From Fennellomyces sp. T-0311 (lineage: Eukaryota; Mucoromycota; Mucoromycetes; Mucorales; Lichtheimiaceae), in contig JALLLT010000086.1 in NCBI GenBank assembly GCA_025266875.1, positions 1 through 64,000 of the forward strand: a stretch of DNA of 64,000 nucleotides, in the 5' to 3' direction. Numbering within the stretch: the stretch's first letter is position 1; each line of letters opens with the position of its first letter. This document shows positions 10,568 to 62,561 of the stretch, one piece after another. The position numbers and the translations under genes are program-made. The notes below the pieces were generated by a model, which had not been told where the DNA came from, did no database searches, and saw only the letters and a list, made by a program, of their open reading frames with translations.

Positions 10568-10811
10568 TTCTGATATGATTACTTATATCGGTACATATAC
10601 TCAAATATTTATACTTATACTTAGGGTGCTCTCATTTTGCTCCGAACAGAGAGACGAAAATGGATTCAAACTATTTCAAAGTCCTCTCCGGTCAGATCAT
10701 CCAAAAAGGTGCACCGAACAGAGAGATTTTCCTTTTCTGTACATCAACCAAATCGATGAACGAATATGCGATTTTTTCTCTTTTCCTTAAGCATTGACGC
10801 GCCCGATTGCA

Positions 10812-10890: not shown

Positions 10891-11787
10891 ATGCGTAACA
10901 ACAACACCAATGCCACCTTCAACATTGTGATGTGGAATCCCCGTCAGGAACAGCAAGAGCAGCAGCAACAACCTCAACCTCAGCAGCAGCAACAGCCTGC
11001 AGAGGCATTACCATCGACAAGCACTTCTGCTTTCGCTGCAAGAGCACCCAATCGCAGATGGGAAGATGGTCATGTCGAAGCATTGATAGATGCTGTCAGT
11101 GCTAGGTATGACACACTTATAAGCATGATCGAAACGCGAGCCAAGGGAGCCATCTGGGACCAGATCGAACAGGTGTATACCCAAACCGATCCTGTGGGCC
11201 GCTCAAAGGAAGCCTTGCAAAAGAAGTGGGGTGACTTGGTAGACATCTACCGCGATGTCCGGACCGTGGTGCAAGACCAATCTGGCGAGAATGGCCCTCC
11301 TGGTCAATAACGATGGGAATATTATGATGCCATGGATAGCATTGTCGGCAGCGATCCAGCAATTGTTCCACCGGCCACCATGAACTCCATCAGTGGCCTT
11401 GTTCGAAACAGACAACGCAACGACGAGGATGGAGTTAATGAGCGGCCAGCACAAAGACGCCGAACCACCGCGTTCCAAGAGCAGGTCCTCGAAAATGCTA
11501 ACCAGCAGATGGATCGCCTGATAGCCAGTATTGGCGAGTCTTTCCGTCGGTTTGAGGAGGCCGAGGATCGTCGTGCACGAGATTTTGAGGCAGCGGAAAA
11601 CCGACACCATTCGGAGTACCTTCAGACACTGAGGGAACTTTTTGGTCGCCCTGGCAACAGTGGTGGACCAAACAATGGAAGCACAAGCGGTACTGAAGCA
11701 GAGCAAGCCGATAATCATGATGATCAATACAGGATTTTGCACGTAATACCGCCGATGGCGGTGGTATTTTATATACTTTGGCAGTGA
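10891..11787 (+). pseudogene. Myb/SANT (trihelix)-like accessory protein of Harbinger G1, interrupted
   Basis: ATG 10891 follows a TATA box. After a Gln/Pro-rich leader (runs of Q near residues 25-40) comes a trihelix-like domain: APNRRWEDGHVEALIDAV, AKGAIWDQIEQVY, and SKEALQKKWGDLVDIYRDV. An in-frame TAA at 11308 follows GENGPPGQ, where G2 has GAG. Reading resumes in the same frame with MDSIVGS, then a Glu/Arg-rich coiled coil (residues about 190-250) and an acidic tail. Nested element H inserted in the original TAA stop, so the frame now reads about 20 codons into the H TIR, to 11787. Family role: binds TIRs and partners the transposase. Confidence 0.75.
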
Positions 11788-12241
11788 ATTTTTGCAACTT
11801 TGGCAGGCAGATTTTGTAGGTTTGGGAGAGACAATTTTTCGTGATCGGGCGGGGTTATCCACCTTCGGGCTGCTAGATTATTCACTTGTGGGCATCGAGT
11901 TTTTCGTTTTTGAAATTCATCTGTGGGTGAACCATTTTCCATATACAAACGCCACTTTTTGATCTTTGATCCCACATGTTATTCACATTCGATGGCATGT
12001 GTTCATTCACATTAAACAATGTGCATTATTCAATCTCGGTGCATCAGCTATTCATAATTGGCACGCCAAGTTTCATCATTGGAAAACATATTCATCACTA
12101 AGCGCTGCAGTTCACCATTGGAATCTCGGTTTTTCTCTCGTCGCTAACCAAATGTTGCCAATGGCTAATACTATAATTCACATCTATAACAGGCCCTTTC
12201 TGCTTCTCAGGCAAAGTTGCACTTGTAGTGTTCCGAGGAAA
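11730..12241 (+). repeat. Left TIR of H (512 bp)
   Basis: Inverted match to 16665-17176. It includes a short near-palindrome AATACCGCC / GGCGGTGGTATT at 11745-11768 and repeated CTTTGGCAG words just inside it, plausible transposase-binding sites. The match stops abruptly after CCGAGGAAA. Confidence 0.92.
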
Positions 12242-12329
12242 AGGATTGTACCTTCGTAGCCTAAAATATATGTGATACATATTGTCTTTTGAGTGTATTT
12301 CTTTTACCAACGTTTTCTTTTGGTTTATC

Positions 12330-12686
12330 ATGGGTCGTGTTAGGCTTGTCCAAGCTAAAAAGCCTTTGCCTACCAGGAAGCGCACATCGAAGCTAGTTCC
12401 ACCTCCAACGTCGCAAGAATTGAAAGAGACTTTAAGAGGCCTAAAGTCGTTAACGGATGGAGTCACTTGCTTACAAAAAGAATTGATGCCAAATGAATAC
12501 GATATCAGTGTCTTAACAGCGCAATTAAGGCGTCTTCATCTCCATCTTCACCTAGAGCCCACAAACTGTAAACAGCATGTTAGCAAGAATGGCATAAAAA
12601 TGCCTAACTCCCAATCGAGCCTGGTCAACGACGAATGGAAAGAACCATCTATACCGGAGCTTCCATCTGGTGTCACAAGATTGTAA
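12330..12686 (+). CDS. Small basic protein of element H (unknown function)
   Basis: The ATG at 12330 is 88 bp inside the left TIR boundary; the 118-aa frame ends with GVTRL. The N-terminus is basic (MGRVRLVQAKKPLPTRKR). The middle has a leucine-rich heptad-like stretch (LKETLRGLKSLTDGVTCLQK, then ISVLTAQLRRLHLHLHL) that could form a coiled coil. I recognise no family. Its position, the first frame after the TIR and upstream of the transposase on the same strand, suggests it belongs to the element. Translation is not proven; it could also be an exon of a longer transcript. Confidence 0.45.
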   Translation: MGRVRLVQAKKPLPTRKRTSKLVPPPTSQELKETLRGLKSLTDGVTCLQKELMPNEYDISVLTAQLRRLHLHLHLEPTNCKQHVSKNGIKMPNSQSSLVNDEWKEPSIPELPSGVTRL

Positions 12687-12899
12687 ACTGATATTTAGAA
12701 AGTCAAGATACTATGCGATGGTATTTAAAGCAACTTAAGCTATTTCTGAGAGCATTACAATTCCAAAGACCCTTTCATAAAAATGTATAATTGTTTATTA
12801 AGATGTCAGTAATAAAGAGCAGCATCTCAAAACTATCGTTAAAAAATGACCCCTTGTACTACATCTCAAGGTTTTTCAACAGGTGTTCATACCGCGCTC

Positions 12900-12907
12900 T
12901 ATAAATA
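12900..12907 (+). promoter_or_regulatory. TATA box of H transposase
   Basis: TATAAATA (followed by TAAAG) lies 50 bp upstream of the ATG at 12957, which supports that ATG over the internal one at 13188. Confidence 0.55.
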
Positions 12908-12956
12908 TAAAGTACTTACCTTTCTTCTCAAAGATTTTAAATATTCGCTGTGAGTT

Positions 12957-14540
12957 ATGAAGACACGTTCTCAAAGAGCATTGACTCGCAATGCCACTAG
13001 GACAGCTCAAAGACAGCCTGTCACTCGACAACCTAGACGATCATCTAGACTTGCAGAAGCTATGACGAAACTGAGTATGGAAGACAAACAGGCTCCAGGT
13101 ATATCAACTGCTTGAAGCTCTGTCCAAAGCTTACTAAGTTCTGGGTATGTAGTTGATACACCTGATATTCCAGACGAAGATACAGACATGGAAGAAACAA
13201 TCGAGTTTATTCATGACGAAGAACTCTATCATGTTCACTTTCCAATTGATCCAGCTCGTCTGAACCAACCAGGCGATGATGTAGACGACGATACTGATGA
13301 CGACAACGACAACGACAACGACATGAACAATGGAATGATAATCGAAGACAGTGATGATGAGCACCAACTTTTTTCGATTGCCCCGATAGCACCGCCGATT
13401 GCTTCCGCCGAAAATAACAGCTCTGTCAGGAACGCCGTAAGACAAATAGCAAGAATAAATGCCCCGGCAAATCCCCGCCGAAAAAATACCAGACATTCGT
13501 CAGATATTATGAGCCAGTCGTTGATACTTAAGCTTGCAGGATTCTCCAACCACTCTGTTGGTGAACTTTTGGGTGTACCCGAAGAAACTGTCCGGGATCA
13601 TAGCAAGAGATTTGACACTCGAGGAGGTGAAGCGACTCCAATCAGTAACAAACGTCCCGAGCCAGTACGAAAAATTACTGAAGAAGGAAGTGATTTCCTT
13701 CTCGACATGGTCAAGAAAACAAACACTGTGACCTTAACTCAAATCCAGCATCTCTATTATCAGCAGTTTCAGGTGTTGTTGGCTCCCTCAACGTTCTACC
13801 GACATCTCGTTCATAAGTGTAGAATCACAATCAAACGCGCTCATCCGTACCCAGAGCGCCGTACCGATGAAGATACCAAGGATATGAGACGAAATTTCAT
13901 CCTTAACAACATCATACACGGCAATGTCGATTACAAGCGCAACTGTGTATTTGTCGATGAAGCATCTGTAATGGCAAACATGCGTCGCAACTATGCATGG
14001 GCACCAGTGAATCAACCAGCACATGTTGTAGTTCCTCAAATGTATGCCCGTTCCCGATCAATGCTTGCAGCGATTTCCCACTTTGGAATCGTCGAAGTTT
14101 GTACAAAGATCAATCAAAGGGGCCAAGGAGGAGGAACAAAAACCCGTGACTTTTACGCTTTCGTAAACCTGGTGATGGACAAACTGGACGAACGAGGCCT
14201 GAAGGAGAAGGACTGGTATATTGTGTGTGATAATGCACCTATCCACACTGCACAATTTGTCCAGAAGAGGGTATCGGATCGTGGGTACACATTGATCTTC
14301 TTACCGAGATATTCCCCGGTACTCAATCCCATCGAGCTGTTTTTCTCGAAGGTAAAGCTGCTTTTCCGGCATGTCTCGTTAGAGGCTCAGCTTGAACAGA
14401 CAATAGAAAGCCAGTCGAATGATTTGGAAGATCGTCTGACGAAGGCAATGGCAAAGGTCACTGCCAGTGACTATACCGGCTGGATCAAGCATTCAATGTC
14501 TTATTTTAAGCGCTGTCTTGACCGAGAAGACTATCTTTAA
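12957..14540 (+). CDS. Tc1/mariner-superfamily transposase, DD34E, of element H
   Basis: Exon 1 is 12957-13098 and exon 2 13153-14540. The 54-nt intron gives a 1530-nt open frame (509 aa). The N-terminus is basic (MKTRSQRALTRNATRTAQ), then acidic. A helix-turn-helix region follows (ILKLAGFSNHSVGELLGVPE, about residues 155-175) and a second one (LTQIQHLYYQQFQVLLAPST). Catalytic residues: Asp in CVFVDEASV, Asp in VCDNAPIHT, and Glu in LNPIELFFSKVK. The second Asp and the Glu are separated by 34 residues. All three are present, so the enzyme may be active. It should cut at the TIR ends and insert at TA. It converges with the gene at 14748-16449. Confidence 0.92.
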
Positions 14541-14747
14541 TCCCTTTGCCGAAGATCCTTTTCTTGATTTCTTTCTGTCAATGCTCTGTCTATTCTACTT
14601 CCTGTTATCATTCATCCCATGTCAATTCCTTATATTGAATGTCTAGTAGCATACACACATTTACATGCCTAAATCTAAACGTTTTTATAATGGAATAAGT
14701 ATGTGTGAAGGAAAGCAAAAAGCTGAATGGGTTACAGAAAGATACGC

Positions 14748-16449
14748 TTAGGGTTGGGTCGTATTCGAAGAAGGACGGAAGCGAAAAAGATCAGCGTGTT
14801 CGCAGTCGTGGCAGCATCTAAAGCGACCAATGATGCAAGTTCTGATGATTTCAGCAGTAGTTTCGCGTAAGGTCGAGTCAAGGCGATTAAAGATAGCCTT
14901 CTTTAAACTCGCTGGGGTATCAGATACTTTGCGATCACACTTCAGCTCCACATAATCGAATAGCATATCGACAGGGTTGAGAGAGAAAGTATAGCGCGGC
15001 AAGAAGATCGCTCTATGACCAGCTGCCTCAACTACCTGTGTTAGCATTTTTTTGGTCTCGCCTGGGGCATCGTCGAAGATGATGTCCCAGTTTTGGAGTT
15101 CATCTTCCTCCATCTTGACTAGAACTTGCCGTACAAACTTCTTGGCGTCGTCATCGGTGGTTTTACGGAATAATTTAAATTCCTGGCAAATCACCCCCTT
15201 TCGGTGGATGGCAGCCAGGTAGGCCATCTTGGTGACAATGGGCTTCTCCTTCATTTCCCGCGTCTTGACTTCCTTGCCTTCGGCTCTGGCTTTAGCAATT
15301 CTGCATTGCTTCTTGTCGTCATCACCATACTTTCGTTTGGGATTTGCGTCGTAGGCTGCTTCACCGACGAATACACAGCGTCTGGGGTTAACACCTTTAT
15401 CAAATAATGTGTGTAGACAGTTTTTCTTGCTTGTTGTTGGCGTCTCTTCTATCGGCTGCTTCGGGAAGGTTTGATGGCGGCGCAACGAAATTCGAAAGTT
15501 TTTTTGCACATATGCTTTTAAATCTGCTCGGGTGATATCGTTGCCAAACATTTGCGAGAAATGTTGGTACACTTCATTGTGGGTTGCAATACTGTGCTCA
15601 TCAACAAATCTGCAAACCCATTTATACATAGCATCAGTAAAGGTCGGAGGGTTCTTCTTCGTTGGACCGGTCTTTTTCTTTTCAAAAGTGCCGGTTTCTT
15701 CGAATGCTCGTGCTCGGCTGCGCAAAGTGTTGATGTTTATATTGTGATCTTCAGCAGTCAGAGTCAAACCCTTTCCTGCTAGCAGATCTTTCAAAGCAGC
15801 TTCAATGGCACCAGATTTTGGGCCGTTATACAGCTTTCTTTGCTTCCCCTTTTTGATCCGTGTTGGAGCAGCTGCAGGAGAATCATCAGCAGTAGAGGCA
15901 GTGTTCTGTGACACTACCTGTTGCTCAGGTGCTGCTGGTGGCTGTTCTAAAGATACAGCAGGTGTCGGTCCTTGCACGAGTTCCTCGGGAAGCGGAGTAG
16001 ATGAAGAGTCATCATCGCTGCCCTCCATGTTTACATCACCTTCCCAGTCTACTTGACTGTAATCTGAATGGGCTATACGTGTCACTTAGTAAGTCACCAT
16101 CGTATTAAACAATACTTTCAATAGACAACATACGGGAGCCTTGGTGTACTGCAGCTTCTGGACTCTCGTATGAAAGTGACGCCATACCTACTCCCGTGTC
16201 TTTCAAAAATAAGGTGGTACAACACTGGTTTTAGAAAGAATTTCATCTATACTACTTTTGCAGTACTCAGTTACCTCCATGATTTCTATCATTACTCATA
16301 TTCAAATCACTGAAGGTGCGCACCATAGATGCGACTGTAGGAGCACTAGTATGCATGCCTACAAGGCCATCAGCAGCATCTCGCTCAGAAGCCGAGAGTT
16401 CGGTAGCAACACGAGGACGCTTTTCCCGCTGGATACTATCGATATCCAT
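14748..16449 (-). CDS. Catalytically degenerate transposase-like protein of element H
   Basis: Exons 16449-16275, 16187-16134 and 16072-14748 total 1554 nt (517 aa) with good GT-AG borders. The N-terminal third is acidic/Pro-Ala-rich and then basic (TRIKKGKQRKLYNG). HTH-like segments follow (IEAALKDLLAGKGLTLTAED and FVDEHSIATHNEVYQHFSQM). The C-terminal half follows the plan of the neighbouring transposase: CVFVGEAAYDAN (first Asp replaced by Gly), WDIIFDDAPGET (second Asp kept), IFLPRYTFSLNPVDMLFDY (Glu replaced by Asp). A Cys/His cluster, FRCCHDCEHADLF, closes the protein. Known family logic predicts no catalysis; a regulatory, structural or DNA-binding partner role is inference. The frame is long and clean, so it is unlikely to be a random relic. 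Confidence 0.8.
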
Positions 16450-16664
16450 GTTCAAAGGTGGAGGCGGTGTCGGGAATGAGCACGTTTGTTTGTCTCAGTT
16501 GTCATTTTTTTTTTAAAAAAAAGGCGATGAAGAGAAAGAAGGAAGTTTATGTGCCTGTTTTACAAAGCGGAAATGTATCTAACATGTTTGTCATACACTC
16601 AAGCTGGTGTATTGCGAAGCGGTGAACGGTTCTCTAACTTTATCTGGCCAAAAATATATCACTC

Positions 16665-17176
16665 TTTCCTCGGAACACTACAAGTGCAACTTTGCCTGAG
16701 AAGCAGAAAGGGCCTGTTATAGATGTGAATTATAGTATTAGCCATTGGCAACATTTGGTTAGCGACGAGAGAAAAACCGAGATTCCAATGGTGAACTGCA
16801 GCGCTTAGTGATGAATATGTTTTCCAATGATGAAACTTGGCGTGCCAATTATGAATAGCTGATGCACCGAGATTGAATAATGCACATTGTTTAATGTGAA
16901 TGAACACATGCCATCGAATGTGAATAACATGTGGGATCAAAGATCAAAAAGTGGCGTTTGTATATGGAAAATGGTTCACCCACAGATGAATTTCAAAAAC
17001 GAAAAACTCGATGCCCACAAGTGAATAATCTAGCAGCCCGAAGGTGAATAACCCCGCCCGATCACGAAAAATTGTCTCTCCCAAACCTACAAAATCTGCC
17101 TGCCAAAGTTGCAAAAATTCACTGCCAAAGTATATAAAATACCACCGCCATCGGCGGTATTACGTGCAAAATCCTG
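16665..17176 (-). repeat. Right TIR of H (512 bp)
   Basis: Reverse complement of 11730-12241. Between it and the start of the minus-strand gene (16450-16664) there is only AT-rich DNA, including a T10/A8 run near 16505-16523, presumably promoter. Confidence 0.92.
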
Positions 17177-17230
17177 TAAATGACTTTGTTTAACTTCTAC
17201 TTAACTTTTTATAATGTTTGTTTTATTTTA

Positions 17231-18812: not shown

Positions 18813-19021
18813 TCGATCCGAGCGAGTCTTCATGATGGTATTTCCACCGAGAAGCAGTTACCAAAGTAGGAGACATCCGTGAACCCTAATTTTGGAAGGT
18901 GGAATGGAAAAATTATTTCCCATCATCAATTTTGGAAATGGGGTTCTCTGTTCGGAGCATAATGAGAGCACCCTTATACTTATAAATTTATTTTATAACA
19001 ACTACATATAAAGGTTTACTA

Positions 19022-20162: not shown

Positions 20163-21799
20163 TTTCTGGAGAAATAAAGAAGTAAAGGATGTAGATAAAA
20201 AGAAGGCTGAGCTGTCTTTTTTATAGTGCAAGAAGGGGGCTGAGCTGTCAGGTAGGTTGGCAAAGAACAGAAGGAATTCTCATTGGACCGGTTAAACATC
20301 CCGTCATCCTTTTTCAGAATATCAATTTTACGAAATGCTTCGTAAAATTGCATAGCCTCACCCCAATTGAAGTAACACCAACTTCCTTTTGAAGGTTCGT
20401 AAAATTCAATTTTACGAAGTCCTAAAACCCTCTAATATCAAAATGTTGTCAGATATATTTTACATCAACTGTTTATTTTTATCAAAAATATAATGCTGAC
20501 GATTTACACTTATAGGAACCAGAGTCGAAATCTTCTTTTGGCTTTGCAGCTGGACAATTACGTTTCTAAACACAGCTGCTATATCCCGCAGAGGTACGAG
20601 TCCCATAAGGACATGTATTTTGAACAAAAGGATGAGGCAAACAAATAGAAGAATGAAAATGACGATGACATGCTCCCTCCATCCAATCTCGAGGATGAAC
20701 GCCTGGCAAAACGCCAGCATAGCACAGATTAATTGTCTTGGAATAAATGGCATTCTGTGCACAGACCATTTTTTTACTTTGTCTTTTCTTTTGTAATCAA
20801 TTGATACACTACTCTGCAATCCAATATGCCATCCTATCGTCCATGCCATTGTAGTGAATGCAAGGGTGCCAAAAATCAGTTACTGCGCACCATTGTGAAT
20901 CATATACTTCGAGATGAAGAGAGAGAGCTTAATATGCTGGTTAGCAATGGTATATAGCTATATACACAGAAAGCAGAACGGTGCTTCGATATCTTGCTTA
21001 CTGAAGTTCTCTCCGTAGCTAACGAAGCTTCTGCTGTGAATGACAACAACATGTCTCTTACAGATAATGAGGATAACAACTACCAAATAGGAGTCGACGA
21101 TGGTAAGCCATAAATTGTGATTGATGTATGCTTGAAGTTGCTAAAGCAAATTAGATCAAGACCAGGCCAGATGGATTGCTGACGATTTTCGCAACTTTCA
21201 CGATGAACAACAGCAGCAGCAGCAGCAATCGATGCCAGAAGTACAGAGAACTCGTGATGCTGGAGGCTTTGCTGCCTTTGAGCAGGAGCATGTCCTGCAA
21301 ACAGCTGAGGAAGCCGAAATGGAGATGTTTGAAGACGATGAAGACTTTCTTCCTCATGTAACTACAGTTGAAGAAGCTGCTCTCGAAAGTACGCTCAGTC
21401 TTAATTTATTCCGCGATACCCTTTCTAACATTTTTCTATATTAGACCATATGCCAATCACAGTAAAAAAAACGGGCTGTAGAGTGGTAGTACACCATGGG
21501 TACTTTTTGGTAAAGTGCCGTAAATAGGCGGTATATTTCCGTGAAATTGGGTTGGAACCATCTTTTACATGTTTTGAACAAGCATTTACCCTAAAGTTAC
21601 CATGATTTTTCTGGTTTCCTGGTGGTAAATCTGAGTTTTCTTGTAAAACACTGTACATTCTAGGTATTTTCCTGTCTGTCGCCATCACATCCTATCCGGG
21701 TAATAACGATGCACCTTGCTTATACAATATGACAAAACGCATGTCATTTGGCTTTTATACGTATTGATGAAAATAAACTACTAGTTAGAAAAAAAAATA

Positions 21800-60213: not shown

Positions 60214-61669
60214 ATGAACAACAACAGCATTCCACCGCCAATTCTCACCCAACGCCCCAGACGTAATAATGCTGCAGAAAGAAGACGCCGTCGAGCAGCA
60301 TTTATGCAACGGCTGACAGAACTTATTGCGCCTTCAGTACAGGCTATCCGCTTTATTGATGCGAGCATTGTCACAGTTTTTTCAAGCTCGCCTCACCACT
60401 TTCGTGCAGCAAAAGTTAGCCGAACGCATGGTGCGCAATTCTGGACGTTGACGCATCCAAACCTGAACGACGACGATGGCTATGACAGTTACAGATGGCA
60501 TTACCGCATGAAGAAATCAACTTTGGAATGGCTTATCAGTACTTTGTCAACACATGACGCATTTGCCTCAGACTCTCCTAGAATGACCCCAGTATACATT
60601 CAAGTCTGCTGTGCGGTGTGGCGTTTTGCAAACACACATGTTGGATATGGCATGTTTGAAACGCAATTTGGTTTAAGCCAAGGGTCGTATCATAACTTCA
60701 CGATGCGATTCCTAAATGCCATCTGCGACGTTCACCAGCGACAGATCAGATGGCCAAGCACACCACAAGAAGTACAGCAAGCAGCACAAGCCTTTTCGGC
60801 ACCTACTGGACTGCCGAGCACCCACGATGCAGGCAGAAGGCTACAGGGAGCGATCGGGGCTATGGATGGCAAACTCATCGTCATCCACAAGCCTACTAGT
60901 AACGGACAGCGCTTTTGGGATCGTAAATTACACCATTCGATCAATTTACTTGCTGTTTGTACTGCTGATGGAAGATTCTCGTATATAGAAGCTGGTCAAT
61001 CAGGTATTGTCAACTACGTATTGAAATATCGATATATTACTCAGTCTAATGTATTTTCAAATCAATCTATAAGGTCGAACCCATGATGCACGTACGTTTG
61101 CCAATAGCTCTCTTAATACGAAGCTATTAAATGAAACTGAACAATGGTGGCTAGATGGAAGTTATATCCTTGCCGGTTAGTACTTCGACCATTCTATATC
61201 TTGATGAATATTACTAACATGAAGTTCCCCAAACTTGAAAGACTCTGCGTATCCACTACGACCAACGATAATGGTGCCTTATTCACGAACAACAACAAGC
61301 CTTGCCGAGAAAAAATTCAACTTCGTTCACTCTTCGATGCGTATGGCCCTTGAACGAGCCTTTGGTTGCCTTGTTTCCCGTTGGAAATTCCTACGCCATT
61401 ATCTTTATCTTCAGGATCATGAGCGATTGACATTGGCGATATACGCATGCTGTATATTGCACAACGTCTGCATCGAACGGCACGACCTTCATTCAAATGA
61501 ACTTTTTCCATTGAATACAGAAGAAGACAAAGGTACGACCGGCCGCATTGCTTTAATTGGTTCAGAACACCAACGTGGCATTGGAGACACTGCATCACTG
61601 CGTCAACAAGGTGTTGTAGTATGCGACAGATTAAGAGATGAGTTGTATGAAGCCAGTTGTAGATTGTAG
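60214..61669 (+). CDS. PIF/Harbinger transposase of element G2
   Basis: Exons 60214-61003, 61074-61175 and 61242-61669 total 1320 nt (439 aa), one residue longer than G1 (an extra Thr in KGTTGR). Catalytic residues are kept: Asp in GAIGAMDGKLIVIHK, Asp in ILADSAYPLRPTIM (codon again split by an intron), Glu in RMALERAFGCLVSRWKF. The frame is open, but LINE2 ends about 95 bp upstream and has replaced the promoter, so expression from this copy is doubtful. Confidence 0.92.
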
Positions 61670-61721
61670 TAGAATAAAACGAATATTACAAAAAAATTAA
61701 GTGGAAGTTAAGCAAAATCAT

Positions 61722-62561
61722 TTATTGATCTTCATTATTGTCGACCTGCTCTTCTTCAGTACTGCTTGTGCTTGTATTGTTTTGCCCGCCACTGTTGCCA
61801 GGGCGACCGAAAAGTTCCCTCAATGTCTGAAGGTATTTGGAATGGCGTCGGTTTTCTGCTGCCTCAAAATCGCGCGCACGGCGGTCCTCTGCCTCCTCAA
61901 ACCGTTCGAAAGCCTCGTCAATACTAGCAATTAGGCGGTCCATCTGCTTGTTTGCATTCTCGAGGAGCTGCTCTTGGAATGCAGTGGTTCGGTGTCGTTG
62001 CGCTGGCCGCTCGTTGCCGTCGTCTTCGTCATTGCGTTGTCGGTTTCGAACAAGGCCATTGATAGAGTCCATGGTGGTTGGTGGAACAACAGCTGGATCG
62101 CTGCCAACGATACTATCCATGACGTTATAATACTTCCATCGCTCTTGACCAGGAGGGCCATTCGTGCCAGTCTAGTCTTGCACCACGGTCCGGACATCAC
62201 GGGAGATGTCTACCAAGTCACCCCACTTTTTTTGCAAGGCTTCCTTTGAGCGGCCCACAGGATCAGTCTGTGCATACACCTGCTCGATCTGGTCCCAGAT
62301 GGCTCCCTTGGTTCGCGTTTCGATCGTTGTTATACGTGTGTCATATCTAGTACTGACAGCACCTATCAATGCTTCGACGTGGCCATCTTTCCATCTGCGA
62401 TTGGGTGCTCTCGCAGCAGAAGCAGAAATGCTTGATGATGGTAATGCTTCTGCAGGCTGTTGTTGCTGCTGAGGTTGAGGTTGTTGCTGCTGCTCTTGCT
62501 GCTCCTGACGAGGATTCCACATCACAATGTTGAAGGTGGGATTGCTGTTGTTGTTACGCAT
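61722..62561 (-). pseudogene. Myb/SANT-like accessory protein of Harbinger G2, one nonsense codon
   Basis: ATG 62559-62561 (MRNNNSNPTFNIVMW) follows a TATA box at 62633-62640. Gln/Pro leader, trihelix-like domain (APNRRWKDGHVEALIGAVS, AIWDQIEQVYAQTD, EALQKKWGDLVDISRDV). TAG at about 62172-62174 replaces the Gln codon of QDQSGE in G1. The frame reopens at once and runs through the region that is a stop in G1 (GPPGQERWKYY), then the coiled coil, to TAA at 61722-61724. Neither copy is a full-length frame. Confidence 0.75.

Follow-up and report, generated by a model that had tools for sequence, protein, structure and literature searches.

Element H, a Tc1/mariner element of the mucoralean fungus Fennellomyces sp. 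T-0311, carries two transposase-related genes on opposite strands: a DD34E transposase with an intact catalytic triad (gene A) and, convergent with it, a real, conserved transposase relative that lacks the first catalytic acid (gene B) and travels with A. The element lies at 11730-17176 of the window, the whole 64,000-nucleotide stretch analysed here, on the 68,967-bp contig C168 of a 45.6-Mb genome. What we establish below is the structure of the element, the loss of the acid in four families, the co-inheritance of B with A, the signature of purifying selection on B and its predicted fold. We lean slightly towards reading B as a dedicated non-catalytic subunit encoded by the element itself.

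Gene B is a transposase paralogue without the first catalytic acid

Protein A matches the Pfam family DDE_3 (E 9.6e-19) and has a mariner transposase fold, that of Mos1. As the original prediction had it, A keeps two Asp and a Glu with DD34E spacing; in the numbering of the 13188-14540 frame these are D257, D348 and E383, with 34 residues between the last two. A search of solved structures by sequence gave A three weak matches, the best of them to Sleeping Beauty (E 0.0017). The gene had been drawn at 12957-14540, of which the frame 13188-14540 stands; for the 5' exon from 12957 no GT-AG join was found within the limits set.

The claim that a second, convergent protein follows the same transposase plan is borne out. 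B and A align in hhalign with a probability of 99.7%, covering both the DNA-binding and the catalytic parts, and blastp finds them 24% identical over 331 aa (E 7.6e-19). The match of B to DDE_3 is weaker than that of A (E 5.1e-7), and its predicted fold comprises a DNA-binding region and an RNase H-like domain homologous to those of Tc1/mariner. B does not have the intact triad of an active Tc1/mariner enzyme: the positions equivalent to those of A, with the same 34-residue spacing, hold G241, D338 and D373, so the first Asp is indeed gone and the Glu is Asp. The first-position codons, for Asp in A and Gly in B, are one base apart, and a 22-nt stretch around them (13943-13964 in A, 15357-15378 in B) is 91% alike between genes whose proteins are 24% identical. 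A match of the B profile to a deacetylase among solved structures (E 0.0017) was taken as chance.

B had been described as an open gene of three exons and 517 aa at 14748-16449. A two-exon model (16449-16275 joined to 16072-14751 by GT-AG) is open throughout and encodes 499 aa, which upholds the open frame and leaves the three-exon form neither confirmed nor excluded. The public gene model P0002 (254 aa) has the same exon 1 and the same junction to the main exon; both models are predictions, and the exon number given for B is provisional. Coordinates are collected in Table 1.

Table 1. Features of element H in the window
Feature	Position	Strand	Basis or remark
Left TA target-site duplication	11728-11729		Comparison of the terminal inverted repeats; empty sites
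Left terminal inverted repeat, 512 bp	11730-12241	+	Begins CAGGATTTTGC; 100% complementary to right arm
Gene C	12330-12686	+	118 aa, basic (isoelectric point 9.9), no Pfam family; between left terminal inverted repeat and A
Candidate 5' exon of A	12957-13187	+	From the original prediction; unconfirmed, no GT-AG join found
Gene A, DD34E Tc1/mariner transposase	13188-14540	+	ATG at 13188 gives 450 aa; upstream, frame open back to 13116
A, first catalytic Asp, D257	13956-13958	+	
A, second catalytic Asp, D348	14229-14231	+	
A, catalytic Glu, E383	14334-14336	+	
Gene B, main exon	14748-16072	-	Two helical DNA-binding-like units and RNase H-like domain without first Asp
B, Asp replacing catalytic Glu, D373	14967-14969	-	
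B, second Asp retained, D338	15072-15074	-	
B, Gly replacing first catalytic Asp, G241	15363-15365	-	
Gene B, exon 1	16275-16449	-	MDIDSIQREKRPR...; KRPR kept in families I-III; public model P0002 and two-exon join
Right terminal inverted repeat, 512 bp	16665-17176	-	Complementarity of arms
Right TA target-site duplication	17177-17178		Comparison of the terminal inverted repeats; empty sites

The loss of the first acid is shared by every B copy. Genome searches yielded 12 B copies and 12 A-clade copies, which were aligned; the first Asp is Gly in all 12 B copies and in P0001, a relative from other data, and no B copy was found that keeps all three acids. Of the 13 B copies that extend this far, 11 (10 from this genome, and P0001) retain Asp at the places of D338 and D373; the two family IV copies, on C21 and C163, carry N and F instead. 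The original prediction had looked for a conserved Gly and Asp at the triad, which thus holds for the Gly throughout and for D373 outside family IV. In the A copies the first Asp is present in 12 of 12 and the other two acids in all 11 that reach them. Among the other DDE_3 genes, 19 of the 20 examined have the first Asp and one has Asn. The triad table behind these comparisons shows 10 of the 13 B rows (those other than C111, C98 and C163), 9 of the 12 A rows (those other than C111, C98 and C36) and the 20 other DDE_3 genes, out of 98 matches. Outside this genome, all 16 A relatives examined, of 21, keep the first Asp, and four have a change at another triad place, all in Circinella minor: P0011 and P0015 carry Lys in place of the catalytic Glu, whereas P0010 has Asn and P0013 has Glu in place of the second Asp. 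Acid loss at the other places does therefore occur in A copies. Judged from the aligned copies, what sets B apart is Gly at the place of the first Asp.

B travels with A and bears the signature of purifying selection

A and B lie together, convergently, at ten places in the genome: C168 and C130 (family I), C30 and C13 (family II), C29, C111, C98 and C149 (family III), and C21 and C163 (family IV). Both full-length copies of H carry B, contrary to the case in which most copies would lack it, and the co-occurrence between shared termini, which had been proposed as a check, extends to three other families of this genome. Family III has four copies with paired ends. B stands without A on C104, where the contig ends just past B, and on C24, which has a single end and no A in the stretch examined. 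A stands without a whole B on C36, where the contig ends within A, and on C165, where a piece at 20638-20937 resembles B. This piece and C150:688753-688926 are short possible remnants of B and lie outside the B alignment.

The termini tell the same story from the DNA side. The genome contains the 13-mer TACAGGATTTTGC at 40 places and its reversed control at 0; 24 of the 40 form the paired ends of 12 spans, and the other 16 are unpaired single ends. Nine of the 12 spans enclose A and B (C13, C21, C29, C98, C111, C130, C149, C163 and C168). Of the other three spans, C54:5891-7377 and C105:486721-488207 are 1,487-bp derivatives of H that keep the terminal inverted repeats (TIRs) and a broken C without A or B, and C46:4201-10765 is seemingly a similar derivative carrying an insertion. 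Apart from the A piece of C21, no partial A-like match lies within a paired-end span. The copies are spread over many contigs, which makes an assembly artefact unlikely.

At the codon level B is under purifying selection overall, with some recent copy pairs apparently relaxed. Codon models gave omega (the ratio dN/dS) of 0.205 for B, 0.161 for A and 0.19 for C, with which pairwise counts agree, and fixing omega at 1 lowered the fit by 119, 176 and 26 log units, respectively. With the family IV copy of C21 and one copy from each other family, omega for B was 0.17 (omega 1 worse by 112); within family III, where dS is unsaturated, it was 0.30 (worse by 17). The models, fitted to 6 A, 7 B and 4 C rows and, within family III, to 5 B rows, had no kappa and masked stops; A_C163, A_C165, A_C36 and B_C163 were omitted from the codon work. 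Neutral evolution of B, which would have counted against a functional partner, is thus not what dN/dS across copies indicates. C29 and C149 differ in B by 12 synonymous and 3 nonsynonymous changes. Four B copies have a stop (C30, C149, C24 and C163), and copies with stops or an excess of nonsynonymous change look like decaying copies.

In the tree B forms one clade (100/100), separate from A (98/95) and from other DDE_3 genes. Being unrooted, the tree does not discriminate between A and another mariner as the source of B, and B_C21 sits on a long branch; it was built from the rows of the triad table less the near-copies A_C13, A_C130, B_C130, B_C30, O_L056 and O_L059, and less O_L033. P0001 groups with family I in the B tree; in the A tree its counterpart P0004, a relative of A, clusters with families I and II. 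Each is listed, under one source (lgn), on a contig of 4294 bp, so the two genes probably lie on a single contig, and the A/B pair probably exists outside this genome. Among five lineages, with pairing assumed, the identities of A and B correlate with r 0.94, a value reached by 2 of 120 relabellings, the true one included. A pattern search for B in IMG/VR and GTDB genomes matched 28 and 46 stretches, respectively, of which 0 were confirmed.

Structure and setting of element H

The TA target duplication and the 512-bp TIRs reported for H are confirmed. The arms at 11728-12241 and 16665-17178, 514 nt each including the TA, are 100% complementary. The flanks of H joined over one TA (242 nt) match 14 other places in the genome at full length with 97-99% identity, and a further 11 over at least 235 nt with 86-89% identity. 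These uninterrupted matches mean that both ends of H and the TA duplication are real. The other five of the 30 rows in this search are the two flanks of H itself, two partial matches and a match at 79%. With TA insertion and duplication, TIRs, a mariner-spaced DDE/D triad and a mariner fold, H belongs to the Tc1/mariner superfamily.

The 11-bp terminus CAGGATTTTGC is common to all four families and 17 bp are common to families II and III; beyond these stretches, the TIRs of families I-III do not resemble one another. In families I and III the TIRs contain the motif GTGAATAA twice, and those of family II lack it; the motif was picked post hoc and was not used. The family IV elements (C21:4062-14611 and C163:23231-33538) measure 10.3-10.6 kb, and the A of C21 matches in two parts about 4 kb apart.

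Gene C was absent from the gene list of the original prediction. It is conserved in three of the four families (I-III): its matches in families II and III are 44-49% identical and lie on the strand of A, between TIR and A, although on C13 about 13 kb now separate C from A. C was not found in family IV, where the C21 copy was read only in part, and a Pfam search with C gave nothing better than E 0.11.

H itself seems to be nested in a PIF/Harbinger-like element. A 30-bp inverted repeat flanked by TTA lies at 10623-10652 and 18945-18974 of the window, an open reading frame (ORF) at 17231-17668 matches DDE_Tnp_4 (Harbinger-like), and it is the joined flanks of this outer element that match the 25 other places counted above. 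A second copy of the Harbinger-like flank, without H, lies at 61600-61835 of the window (87%, query 8-242 of 242).

What B may do

We infer that the element expresses B and that B binds DNA, contacts A and aids rather than hinders transposition. The order in H's group is TIR, C, A, convergent B, TIR, with A as the catalytic transposase. B reads as an old, separately evolving paralogue, with a two-part DNA-binding-like region and a mariner RNase H fold in which the first metal-binding Asp has become an invariant Gly. It may bind element DNA, A, or both, and help to build or hold the transpososome while A cuts, placed outside the catalytic pair. Gene C hints at an assembly encoded by the element. 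A fuller version, in which the element encodes its own heteromeric transpososome from catalytic A, a required dead paralogue B and small C, co-inherited as A and B in four families and C in three, we put forward more tentatively, as somewhat short of probable.

Several observations weigh against a helper. In Hsmar1 both strands at an end are cleaved by a single active site, and subunits made inactive by D155A can form part of dimers (PMC5714172; papers are cited here and below for the passages retrieved from them). By that account a B inside the catalytic dimer would presumably block one end, which favours either a brake or a B outside the catalytic pair. B of families I-III retains two of the three acidic positions, and in P0002 a further stretch, with the Gly in it, is removed by splicing. 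The dS between families is saturated, and two pairs of B copies show mostly nonsynonymous differences (1 synonymous and 12 nonsynonymous between C30 and C13; 0 and 5 between C29 and C98). Finally, A relatives are present in the protein database from Circinella minor and C. umbellata, yet shared-word searches of it, one of them limited to 8,000 candidates, found no Circinella B. B diverges faster, so a relative might have been missed, but Circinella elements could also be without B.

The main alternative, a possible but less likely one, is that B is a self-encoded repressor, which keeps copy number down by sitting on the ends or by pairing with A in dead mixed dimers. Tn5 Inh and the P-element KP are inactive transposase-like products able to limit the active one, as such a B would. 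Both are truncations of the same gene, whereas B is a separate, diverged gene. Copies per family are few (the two full-length H and the four paired-end copies of family III), mariner elements limit themselves by overproduction inhibition (PMC3687335), and a mixed dimer with an inactive subunit would be expected to fail at one end, going by Hsmar1 (PMC5714172). Help is nevertheless favoured, because the loss of a mere brake should pay within the genome, so that copies without B should gain and appear. Yet 0 of the 12 A copies clearly lacks B by loss: ten have it, one is cut by a contig end and one has the B-like piece. Help is favoured also because B is far from A in sequence; 24% identity is distant for a poison that needs to mix with A.

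It is improbable that B serves the element without contacting A, for instance in nuclear import, target choice or shielding from host silencing. The KRPR-containing exon 1, retained in families I-III, would suit such a role, as would long TIRs with room for extra binding sites, though the motif counts are small and were chosen after the fact. The retention of the whole mariner plan, DNA-binding part and RNase H fold alike, points instead to transposition itself. Less likely still is a B that remains a nuclease in families I-III with its first acid relocated to E242 or D246. The retention of D338 and D373 in all copies of families I-III and in P0001, and a D246 invariant in 7 of 7 rows of alignment A1, are what such an enzyme would show. 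But the equivalent of E242 is also present in A beside its Asp, both family IV copies have lost the other two acids, and a single Asp change gives an inactive Hsmar1 (PMC5714172). Least likely is the relic reading, in which an old second transposase gene hitch-hikes in the element and decays: the stops and the excess of nonsynonymous change in some recent pairs would fit, but frames open in four families at 23-60% identity and an omega near 0.2 with omega 1 rejected already contradict it.

Relation to known systems

Like other members of IS630-Tc1-mariner (Mos1, Sleeping Beauty, Hsmar1), H has a TA duplication and TIRs, and A has DD34E and the Mos1 fold. Tc1/mariner elements usually carry one gene. 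H differs from them in having three, among them a paralogue of the transposase that lacks the first acid. Tc1-MP1 of Rhizopodaceae and Mucoraceae shares with H the Mucorales as host and DD34E, but, as described in the retrieved passages, it is 1,688 bp long with 141-bp TIRs and one ORF (PMC9977792). The ciliate elements TBE, Tec, Sardine, Thon and Anchois combine, as H does, a Tc1/mariner transposase with further genes, and Sardine and Thon also have long TIRs (PMC12242761, PMC3464196). The extra genes named in the retrieved passages are a tyrosine recombinase and hypothetical ORFs, none of which those passages describe as a catalytically dead transposase paralogue (PMC12242761, PMC3464196). 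A parallel to B is offered by the PgmL proteins, partners of PiggyMac in Paramecium, which are transposase paralogues without a full triad that evolve faster than the active partner (PMC6143343). Like them, B has lost the full triad and evolves faster than its active partner, and it is nevertheless kept by selection, but PgmL are domesticated host genes of the piggyBac family that do not sit on a mobile element (PMC6143343), whereas B is mariner-like and inside one.

The original prediction knew of no Tc1/mariner element with this layout. Consistent with that, we found no report of an element-borne dead transposase paralogue in open-licence PMC papers, which is weak evidence of absence. Multi-gene Tc1/mariner elements are known in ciliates, and transposase partners without a full triad are known as host genes in Paramecium; what we did not find reported is such a paralogue carried by the element itself. 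Transpososome subunits are generally identical because an element has one transposase gene, and catalytically dead partners have been described as domesticated host proteins (PMC6143343). If our reading of B is true, split catalytic and non-catalytic transposases would arise within selfish elements. A, B, C and two TIRs would make a small system for telling helper from brake directly, and one that bears on how transposon self-restraint could evolve and survive competition among an element's own copies.

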